A DNA stretch of 12,449 nucleotides from contig PEWQ01000144.1 in assembly GCA_002780065.1 (NCBI GenBank), positions 1 to 12,449 on the forward strand. Reading direction: 5' to 3'. Of the stretch, positions 9,768 through 12,449 are shown one piece after another; the stretch's first letter is position 1; each line of letters opens with the position of its first letter. The stretch is from Candidatus Hydrogenedentes bacterium CG07_land_8_20_14_0_80_42_17. Lineage in GTDB: Bacteria; UBA8481. The notes beneath the pieces are model-generated. The model was given only the letters and a program-made list of their open reading frames with translations. It ran no database searches and was not told the origin of the DNA. The position numbers were made by a program, and so were the translations under genes.

Positions 9768-9815
9768 AAAAGGGTTTTGCTCAAAGAAATATATGATTGC
9801 CATTGTGGGGAAAAA

Positions 9816-10409
9816 ATGAAATATAATCCCGATAGACACCATCGAAAATCCATACGATTAAAACATTATGATTATTCACAGGCAGGGGCGTATTTTGTAA
9901 CGATATGCACAAAAGATAGAAAATTATTTTTTGAAGATGAATTCATTAAATCGATTGCTGAAACATTTTGGAAGGAAATACCAAAACATTTTATAAATGT
10001 GAAATTAGACGAATTTATAATTATGCCTAATCATCTGCACGGCATAATAATAATTGAAAATGATATTGCCGTAGGGACAGGGCACCGCCCTGTCCAAATA
10101 GGGCACCGCCCTGTCCAAAACCGATTTCAAAATCCAGGCAAGGGATCATTGTCAACAATTATAGGATCATACAAATCCATTACCATAAGAACCATCAATG
10201 AAATTGTAGGGACAGGGCACTGCCCTGTCCAAATAGGGCAAGGCAATGCCTTGCCCCTACGTGAACAGAAAAATTTTGCGTGGCAACCACGATTCTATGA
10301 ACATATAATTCGCGATGAAATTGAATTGAATAAAATTAGAGAATATATTATAAACAATCCTCTAAAATGGGAATTGGATATTGAAAATCCGGAAAGAATA
10401 AAGAGCTAA
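9816..10409 (+). CDS. REP-associated tyrosine transposase (RAYT, Y1 HUH family)
   Basis: A 197-residue single-strand DNA transposase of the IS200/IS605-related TnpA_REP group, expected to recognise and process palindromic REP elements. Features are RHHRKSIRLKHYDYSQAGAYFVTICT (9-31 region), FIIMPNHLHGIIII (67-80) with the HUH pair H73 and H75, GSLSTIIGSYKS (110-121), AWQPRFYEHIIRDE (155-168) and REYIINNPLKWELD (175-188), where Y177 is the likely nucleophile. ATG 9816 is chosen over TTG 9777 because GTGGGG lies five bases upstream. Two stretches not expected in the family, residues 86-101 and 131-149, are translated from GC-rich palindromes in the gene. All core motifs remain in frame, so the gene looks intact. 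It follows the small membrane protein gene by 48 bases and precedes the amt promoter. Confidence 0.85.
   Translation: MKYNPDRHHRKSIRLKHYDYSQAGAYFVTICTKDRKLFFEDEFIKSIAETFWKEIPKHFINVKLDEFIIMPNHLHGIIIIENDIAVGTGHRPVQIGHRPVQNRFQNPGKGSLSTIIGSYKSITIRTINEIVGTGHCPVQIGQGNALPLREQKNFAWQPRFYEHIIRDEIELNKIREYIINNPLKWELDIENPERIKS
10071..10118 (+). repeat. Palindromic element in frame inside the RAYT gene, copy 1
   Basis: A 48-base insert (16 codons). GGACAGGGC at 10075-10083 and GCCCTGTCC at 10087-10095 form a perfect 9-base stem with loop ACC. A shortened second hairpin, AGGGC-ACC-GCCCT, follows at 10100-10112. It is read as VGTGHRPVQ then IGHRPVQ. It lies between the HUH strand and the GSLSTIIGSYK helix, where a loop would tolerate extra residues. 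Same family as the array at the right end of the window. Confidence 0.8.
10206..10262 (+). repeat. Palindromic element in frame inside the RAYT gene, copy 2
   Basis: A 57-base insert (19 codons). The first hairpin is GGACAGGGC-ACT-GCCCTGTCC (10210-10230) and the second is GGGCAAGGC-AAT-GCCTTGCCC (10236-10256), both with perfect 9-base stems. GTAGGG at its left edge and CCCTAC at its right edge are also inverse. It is read as VGTGHCPVQIGQGNALPLR, in the same codon phase as copy 1, and sits in the linker before AWQPRFYEH. Confidence 0.8.
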
Positions 10410-10563: not shown

Positions 10564-11994
10564 ATGATTAGAGCCGTAAAGAAATGTCAATTCTGGTTTC
10601 TTGTTGCATTTATATTCAGCGTAATTTTGGCAACAGTTGTGGCGGCGGATACCGGAGCAATAAATGGAAGTGCGATTACAAGTCAATCTTCTTCCTTGGA
10701 GGAAATTGCGGATACGCCTGTAGTCTCTCAGACTGTAGTCCAGAAAGTTAAAAAAGATAACGAGATCGATACTGGCGATACAGCATGGGTTCTAATCTCG
10801 ACAGCGCTTGTACTTCTTATGACGCCGGGCCTTGCGTTTTTTTACGGAGGACTTGTCCGAAAGAAAAATGTGCTTTCGATCATAATGAAGTCTTTCATGT
10901 GTATGGCTCTAATTACGATGCAGTGGGTGATTTTTGGATACAGCCTTTCTTTTGGCTCTGACATTCACGGATTGATTGGAGACCTTTCTTGGTTTGGACT
11001 CAGAGGAGTGGGGCTTGCGCCGAATTCTGATTATGCCGCTACAATTCCTCATCAATTGTTTATGCTTTTTCAGATGATGTTTGCGATTATAACTCCGGCG
11101 CTGATAATCGGCGCGGTTGCTGAGCGGATTAAGTTTTCTGCGTTTGTGATCTTTTCATTGCTTTGGTCGACATTTGTTTATGACCCTGTATGCCACTGGG
11201 TGTGGGGTGTAGGCGGCATTTTGAGAAATACTGGAGCGCTGGATTTTGCGGGAGGAACAGTCGTGCATATCAATGCGGGAATGGCGGCGCTTGCCGCAGC
11301 ATTGATATTAGGCAGAAGACATAATATGGTTCTTCATGTTCCGCTTCCTCATCATCTTCCCTTTGCCGCGCTTGGAGCAGGCCTTTTATGGTTCGGATGG
11401 TTTGGCTTCAATGGCGGTAGTGCGCTGGGTTCGAATTCAATTGCGGTTAATGCATTTGTGACGACTCATATTGCCGCATCATCAGCGGGATTGACTTGGT
11501 CGTTGATCGAATGGGTCGTGAATTCGAGACCGACGATGCTTGGTATGATTACCGGTGCTGTGGCTGGGCTGGTTGCTATTACTCCGGCTTCCGGTTTTGT
11601 GAACGTTATTGGAGCTATTTGGATTGGAATCGGAGCGTCGGCAATCTGCTTCTTATTCGTTTCGGTCATTAAACCTAAACTCGGTTATGATGATGCTCTT
11701 GATGCTTTTGGAGTGCACGGCATCGGTGGAATTTGGGGTGCTGTTGCAACAGGAATTTTTGCTACGAAAGCTGTGAATGCAGGCGGAGCAAATGGATTTT
11801 TTTACGGCGATGCGTTTCAACTTTTTGTCCAGCTTAAAGCGACGGCAATTACTGCAATTTATTCTTTCGTAGTCTCTTTCGTAATTTTGAAGGTTCTGGA
11901 TGCAATGATTGGGATTCGCACTACCTGTGAGTCTGAAAAGATTGGGCTCGATCTTACGGAACATCGTGAGTCGGCATACACAATGTTGGAATAG
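10564..11994 (+). CDS. amt: Ammonium transporter Amt
   Basis: Inner-membrane trimeric channel for ammonium uptake. The 476 residues begin with a signal-like helix (7-28, ending VVAADTG), then a linker of about 40 residues, then the 11-helix Amt core from about residue 70. Conserved pore elements are visible: DTAWVLISTALVLLMTPGLAFFYGG (71-96 region), MMFAIITPALIIGA with F173, HWVWG with W214, LDFAGGTVVHINAG with D227 and the pore histidine H235, and DAFGVHGIGGIWG with the second pore histidine H385. ATG 10564 is used because GGAGG lies five bases upstream; the earlier TTG at 10531 lies inside the -12 promoter element and cannot be the start. A GlnK-type PII gene follows after 11 bases, the usual pairing, in which PII plugs the channel when nitrogen is plentiful. 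Confidence 0.95.
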   Translation: MIRAVKKCQFWFLVAFIFSVILATVVAADTGAINGSAITSQSSSLEEIADTPVVSQTVVQKVKKDNEIDTGDTAWVLISTALVLLMTPGLAFFYGGLVRKKNVLSIIMKSFMCMALITMQWVIFGYSLSFGSDIHGLIGDLSWFGLRGVGLAPNSDYAATIPHQLFMLFQMMFAIITPALIIGAVAERIKFSAFVIFSLLWSTFVYDPVCHWVWGVGGILRNTGALDFAGGTVVHINAGMAALAAALILGRRHNMVLHVPLPHHLPFAALGAGLLWFGWFGFNGGSALGSNSIAVNAFVTTHIAASSAGLTWSLIEWVVNSRPTMLGMITGAVAGLVAITPASGFVNVIGAIWIGIGASAICFLFVSVIKPKLGYDDALDAFGVHGIGGIWGAVATGIFATKAVNAGGANGFFYGDAFQLFVQLKATAITAIYSFVVSFVILKVLDAMIGIRTTCESEKIGLDLTEHRESAYTMLE

Positions 11995-12005
11995 GAGAAG
12001 AAAAG

Positions 12006-12347
12006 ATGAAATACATAATTGCGGTAATTCAATTGGACAGAGTTGATGAAGTCCTGCAGAGATTGGAAGAAAAAGAGGTTCATCTTGTGACAGTGACTCC
12101 GGTATTGGGTAGAGGCCGGCAGAAAGGCGTAGCTCAGGTTTATCGCGGGAACAAGGAAGCGGGAAGTTTATTGAAGAAAGCAAAATTAGAGGTTGCCGTC
12201 AATAATCAATTTGTGCCTGCGACTGTTGAAGCAATTATGGAAGGAGCTCGCACCGGCAACATCGGAGACGGAAAGATTTTTGTGTTCAACATGGAAGAGT
12301 GCTATCGGATACGTACAGGTGAAATTGGCTCAGTCGCGATTGGCTAG
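12006..12347 (+). CDS. glnK: PII nitrogen regulatory protein (GlnK-like, no Tyr51)
   Basis: A 113-residue trimeric signalling protein that senses ATP/ADP and 2-oxoglutarate and, next to amt, probably gates the transporter. PII landmarks are KYIIAVIQLDRVDEV at the start, the T-loop from GRGRQKGVAQVYRG (35-48) to about 55, and the signature ARTGNIGDGKIFVF (81-94) with RIRTGE. Numbering matches E. coli GlnB without gaps here: Q39 (2-oxoglutarate/Mg site) is kept. However, the uridylylated tyrosine position 51 is Glu in YRGNKEAGSLL. It is therefore probably not controlled by GlnD-type uridylylation, as in other amt-linked PII subfamilies. AGGAG (11993-11997) overlaps the amt stop, eight bases before ATG 12006. 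Confidence 0.92.
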   Translation: MKYIIAVIQLDRVDEVLQRLEEKEVHLVTVTPVLGRGRQKGVAQVYRGNKEAGSLLKKAKLEVAVNNQFVPATVEAIMEGARTGNIGDGKIFVFNMEECYRIRTGEIGSVAIG

Positions 12348-12449
12348 TAGGGACAAGGCAATGCCTTGTCCCTACGACAGGGCACCGCCCTGTCCCTACG
12401 ACAAGGCACCGCCCTGTCCCTACGACAAGGCACCGCCCTGTCCCTACGA
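12347..12449 (+). repeat. Tandem array of 24-base palindromic units, running off the window
   Basis: The first element is a perfect 13-base stem, GTAGGGACAAGGC-AAT-GCCTTGTCCCTAC (12347-12375), whose first G is the last base of the glnK stop codon. Three further units of exactly 24 bases follow (12376-12399, 12400-12423, 12424-12447), each ending GTCCCTAC. Unit 2 is a perfect ACAGGGC/GCCCTGT hairpin with loop ACC. Units 3 and 4 join an ACAAGGC left arm to a GCCCTGT right arm, leaving one A-C mismatch. There are no spacers, so it is not CRISPR. The family is the one inserted in the RAYT gene. The first hairpin may also end or stabilise the amt-glnK transcript. Confidence 0.85.

Follow-up and report, generated by a model that had tools for sequence, protein, structure and literature searches.

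An intact RAYT gene with in-frame REP palindromes on either side of helix alphaC, and how REP core and alphaC correspond among its homologues

The window, by which we mean the whole stretch of DNA analysed (12,449 bases), is the entire contig C205 of a 2.39-Mb draft genome (207 contigs, 87% complete). It encodes a RAYT, or TnpA-REP, protein (Table 1) whose open reading frame begins with ATG, with a possible earlier in-frame start (TTG) at 9777, and is assigned to the Pfam family Y1_Tnp. An AlphaFold model of fair quality (mean pLDDT 77.8, pTM 0.74) has as its closest solved structure 4er8, the E. coli TnpA-REP with its REP hairpin (Foldseek E 3.8e-7; Z 13.6 across 130 residues); domain and structure bear out the identification as a RAYT made in an earlier note on this DNA. 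The HUH histidines, the WQ pair and the predicted catalytic tyrosine are all present and conserved, so there is no sign of a dead gene; judged from its sequence, this is an intact RAYT.

Table 1. Coordinates of the RAYT gene, its motifs and inserts, and the REP array in the window
Feature	Position	Strand	Remarks
RAYT/TnpA-REP gene, 197 aa	9816..10409	+	Y1_Tnp; model matches 4er8
HUH motif codons (H73-L-H75)	10032..10040	+	Invariant in homologue alignment
Insert 1: REP 10071-10095, AAATA 10096-10100, truncated REP 10101-10116	10071..10116	+	Reads VGTGHRPVQIGHRPV
alphaC segment GSLSTIIGSYKSITIRTINE	10143..10202	+	Helix 112-131 in model; its face tracks REP core
Insert 2: REP(+) 10206-10230, AAATA 10231-10235, REP(-) 10236-10260	10206..10260	+	Reads VGTGHCPVQIGQGNALPL
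WQ motif codons (W156-Q157)	10281..10286	+	Alignment
Catalytic Tyr codon (Y177 in YIINNP)	10344..10346	+	Assigned by homology
REP array, window family	12347..12449		Begins with GTAGGGACAAGGCAATGCCTTGTCCCTAC; 24-bp units follow in tandem up to contig end

Two palindromic inserts interrupt the gene in frame. Insert 1, placed between the HUH strand and alphaC, is made up of a 25-nt REP (GTAGGGACAGGGCACCGCCCTGTCC), a spacer and a shortened second REP (GGGCACCGCCCTGTCC); insert 2, between alphaC and the WQ strand, consists of two full REPs in inverted orientation, with GTAG and CTAC outermost. The earlier note had described two composite palindromes in a single codon phase, situated in loops between RAYT core motifs, and this description holds: both begin in phase 0 (GTA GGG, Val-Gly) and encode the peptide VGTGHxPVQIG, and both fall in low-confidence regions of the model, mostly unstructured coil outside the predicted core (residues 81-111 are coil). 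The lengths given there, 48 and 57 bases, become 46 and 55 on recounting. As RNA, insert 1 is predicted to fold at -30.6 kcal/mol (z -4.9) and insert 2 at -37.7 kcal/mol (z -6.1), values equalled by no shuffle; the stretch between them has a z of +0.6.

A pattern search of the whole 2.39-Mb assembly, allowing up to two mismatches, finds the window palindrome on three contigs only (C205, C108, and C15), against one match for the backward-pattern control. C205 carries it in the RAYT gene and in the terminal array; C108 ends in an array of 51-bp units, each an insert-type composite in reverse complement, and C15 holds an array of a variant. The outer flanks of the window gene contain no REP within 1 kb, the next being that at 12347, 1.9 kb off. 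Contigs C205 and C108 both terminate within REP arrays, and three RAYT fragments of the same genome (L016, L023, and L030) stop at contig ends within or beside in-gene REPs; this assembly seems to break at such elements, so that REP counts from draft genomes are probably too low, and the real copy number of the palindrome is probably higher than the count given here. The end of L023 and the start of L030 (G000, contigs C143 and C17) share one REP type (GAACACACAGGTTCGCCC, read as GEHTGSPL); the assembly may have cut a single RAYT gene into these two pieces. The window genome has three more Y1_Tnp genes (L001-L003), none with a GT[AG]GGGRC foot. Between the RAYT gene and the array (10567-12347) lie an ammonium-transporter-like (AmtB) gene and then a PII-like (GlnB) gene, both named from translation alone; the array begins directly at the end of the latter.

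Homologues were surveyed at 80 loci across many phyla and at 90 further loci, giving 146 distinct genes. A GTAG palindrome occupies the HUH-to-W (beta3-alphaC) loop in 127 of them, a proportion (87%) that may be inflated because the search for genes relied on similarity to an alignment of mostly insert-bearing members. The alignment proposed in the earlier note does turn up homologues without the insert, namely the other 19. The residues of the insert are not common to the homologues, since different palindromes encode different peptides; related palindromes are also found near many RAYT genes. The earlier suggestion that the palindromes are REP elements, of the kind that the enzyme would be expected to recognise, is supported. 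In the 80-locus set, the beta3-alphaC loop holds 5.6 REPs per kb and the remainder of the gene 0.51; the flanks have 1.9 per kb in their first 200 bp and 0.11 to 0.24 farther out, intergenic DNA has 0.71, and other ORFs (150 residues or longer) have 0.065. Chance palindromes are ruled out by these densities together with the RNA folds. In one homologue (L117, 719-1261) the peptide of the in-gene REP, RARHAVPL, is repeated beyond the WQ motif, in the stretch from beta4 to the catalytic helix.

The GTAG feet stand in phase 0 in 79 cases and in phase 1 in 38, and never in phase 2, where a foot would give an in-frame TAG stop. Three 18-nt cores are each read in both open phases and yield unrelated peptides, which indicates that the DNA, not the peptide, is kept. 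In three alphaC types with good sampling, identity between genes is 76-90% for the 18-nt core, against 24-46% at the four-fold sites of those same genes; the DNA must then be either under selection or steadily renewed from other copies.

The alternative that survives best is that such insertions are tolerated and nothing more: REPs would land in the gene just as they do near it and persist, functionless, only where a loop tolerates in-frame peptide (Quentin et al. 2018). The coil positions of the two inserts, the absence of GTAG from the stop phase, the high REP density that extends into the first 200 bp of flank, and the intragenic REPs known from other genes (PMC3733652) are all consistent with this. 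It accounts less well for a loop density eight times that of intergenic DNA and three times that of the near flank, for the presence of a palindrome in so many of the genes surveyed, and for near-perfect palindromes across phyla despite saturated synonymous sites, since neutral relics would not remain so unless constantly renewed. We regard functionless insertion as a serious possibility, short of an even one.

The sequence of the in-gene REP follows that of alphaC. In partial Mantel tests the correlation of REP with alphaC given the backbone is 0.488 (0 of 2000 permutations as high), and that of REP with the backbone given alphaC is 0.005, which rules out backbone phylogeny as the origin of the match. 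REP type and alphaC type agree with an adjusted Rand index of 0.72 (maximum of 2000 permutations, 0.049). The REP type of the nearest neighbour agrees at a rate of 0.78 when neighbours are chosen by alphaC and 0.24 by whole backbone, with controls at 0.13 (20 entropy-matched backbone columns) and 0.06 (random); seven face positions give 0.75, although these were picked on the same data that scored them, the one independent result being the cross-set prediction by whole alphaC. There, where alphaC identity is 55% or more, the cores of second-set genes are predicted from the first set with an identity of 0.83; prediction by backbone gives 0.54. Among genes less than 55% identical in backbone the agreement is still 0.65-0.66, against 0.06. 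The strongest positions of the 20-residue segment, scored in 127 genes, include 0, 4, 7, 8, 11, 12, and 15, the spacing of one helix face.

Examples of helix and REP that occur together are KPLGRLIGAFKTVSTKQIN with GGCGGTTCGCGAACCGCC, MLLPKIIGYFKMNVAKQIN with GGCAATTCATGAATTGCC, HGLPEIVRAFKTFSARRIN with GCGGGTTTNAAACCCGC, KSLGSFIAGFKSSATRRIN with GGCGCACGGCCGTGCGCC, and GSIPTVIRSFKSAVTKRIN with GGCACGGCATGCCGTGCC. The window helix (GSLSTIIGSYKSITIRTIN) has its nearest alphaC relatives in L214, L171, and L195. The REP of L171 (GACACGGCATGCCGTGTC) resembles the window family, GACARGGCAnnGCCYTGTC; the cores of L214 and L195 are GACGTTGCATGCAACGTC-like and agree with it more poorly. Core similarity was computed ungapped, and the window REP, unequal in length to those of its nearest alphaC relatives, fell into a type of its own. 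The nearest backbone to the window gene (L131, 0.67) has a different alphaC and a different REP. A description of REP-alphaC matching was not found in the openly searchable papers.

REP and alphaC are exchanged together between RAYT backbones. Locus L164 (G204:C2:2300414-2302062) consists of three tandem mosaic RAYT genes, the third with an in-frame stop. The first two are 95% identical outside one segment (126/132 and 134/141 positions) and 55% identical (137/249) inside it, the segment running from alphaB through the HUH strand and REP to alphaC and thus covering more than REP and alphaC; the second and third share the segment (237/249) and diverge after it. Two other genomes (G002 and G010) contain gene pairs with similar C-terminal parts but differing helices and REPs. 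On a short backbone tree alphaC type changes 73 times, against 95 with shuffled labels.

With about 10-100 nt between REP and alphaC, part of their correlation may come from such linkage, and it could be argued that all of it does, the two adjoining and recombining as one block without any recognition. The swaps themselves and the scatter of alphaC types across the backbone tree are in keeping with this. Linkage alone does not readily explain why a sliding-window computation puts the maximum of the correlation on alphaC (0.48) and gives almost none for the neighbouring HUH strand, or why the signal lies along one helix face. Nor does within-gene linkage alone give the result for 11 genes that have no in-gene REP, whose external flanking REPs match the core predicted from alphaC at 0.77 (background, 0.47). 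The equivalent helix of E. coli TnpA-REP, moreover, carries K82, which contacts the REP (PMC8266576); when the invariant lysine of alphaC is anchored on K81, in an alignment done by eye on the F/I-K motif, K82 falls at position 11 of the putative code. By analogy, alphaC probably contacts the hairpin in subclass 2.4 also, and linkage without recognition appears unlikely. For group 3 RAYTs, REP contacts have merely been speculated on (PMC8266576).

The hairpins might instead limit production of the transposase, through the mRNA or as operator sites. The great stability of the RNA hairpins in the coding region would suit such a role, which on its own leaves the match of core and alphaC unexplained, unless the protein binds its own site; we think it distinctly unlikely. 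That the inserts belong to the protein fold as an ancient component under selection is hardly credible: the site is fixed and peptides such as VGAxxxxAPT are conserved within types, but the same palindrome is translated in different phases, each type has a different palindrome, 19 of 146 genes lack an insert, and no structure is predicted for the window inserts.

Our preferred reading of the computed site, DNA conservation, core-helix match and cassette swaps is that the in-gene REP is the cognate substrate of the enzyme, tolerated as protein and maintained as DNA; we consider this probable, with a role in the cell that we infer. The window inserts would be copies of the gene's own cognate REP, lodged in loops that tolerate additional peptide, and read, as DNA, by alphaC of the very protein in which they sit. 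REP and alphaC would be inherited and exchanged among RAYT genes as a single specificity cassette, and a copy inside the gene would keep enzyme and substrate together during gene transfer or exchange of the specificity region; this copy may itself be bound or cleaved. In its fullest form the proposal is of a self-labelled cassette, in which the REP core is read by six or seven residues on one face of alphaC, the REP that matches them sits in the same gene and swaps with the helix, so that each gene would declare its own substrate, and the window helix is bracketed by REPs; we rate this an even prospect. The alphaC segment of the window gene stands between REPs as if a specificity segment had turned into a REP-bounded unit.

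For the question of how RAYTs select their REPs, the matching of REP and helix points to a readable recognition code. If each gene of subclass 2.4 holds its cognate REP next to the helix by which it is read, hundreds of enzyme-substrate pairs could be read from sequence; a code for the recognition of DNA hairpins by protein would be deducible, and specificity could be tested through helix swaps. Such an arrangement would further account for the continued association of a transposase with its short non-autonomous elements during horizontal transfer.

By its motifs and features the window gene fits TnpA-REP subclass 2.4, for which in-frame REPs within the gene are a published hallmark (Quentin et al. 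2018, PMC6006769). The earlier note called them unusual; being already published, and present in most of the homologues, they make its observation one of a known kind. Members of this broadly distributed subclass generally carry the in-gene REPs between HUH and Y, together with double-foot REPs and a variable beta3-alphaC insertion, and the insertions are held possibly to affect the protein little (PMC6006769). The window gene shares the Y1 HUH core, the motifs (NHLH, WQ, and YIINNP, against NH[IFV]H, WQ, and YIxNNP), the long variable beta3-alphaC insertion, the long distance from HUH to Y (104 residues to the Tyr motif; published median, 88), the in-frame REP, and double-foot composite REPs inside the gene, as well as the lack of a C-terminal extension, the protein stopping 20 residues past the catalytic tyrosine; its homologues likewise come from many phyla. 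It differs in the Leu of its HUH motif, where the published consensus has I/F/V, and in the distance of its closest external REPs. It also adds, between alphaC and beta4, an inverted pair of REPs at a position unlisted for the subclass; insertions there are tabulated for subclasses 2.2 and 2.6 only (PMC6006769). Among the 146 genes it alone has REPs flanking alphaC on both sides; insert 2, located after alphaC, is its unusual feature.

The E. coli TnpA-REP, or REPtron (subclass 2.2, PDB 4er8), has the same fold, HUH/Y1 chemistry and GTAG-tagged REPs, and its REP-contacting helix, alpha3, corresponds to alphaC. In E. coli, however, the REPs flank the gene and carry a bulge, and GTAG makes contact with a C-terminal tail; REPs inside the gene have been described as peculiar to subclass 2.4. 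Palindromes translated in frame are also known from the GTAG/CGTC REPs found inside many other genes (Di Nocera et al. 2013, PMC3733652) and from the Rickettsia RPEs, which occur in many unrelated genes at varied sites, whereas those of the window type occupy a fixed site in the gene of their own transposase. Insert 2 resembles a REPIN in that two REPs stand in opposite orientation across a short spacer, and differs in lying in frame within a RAYT gene and in its low copy number in the window assembly. The window gene is a known kind in an unusual form, with REPs on either side of alphaC.
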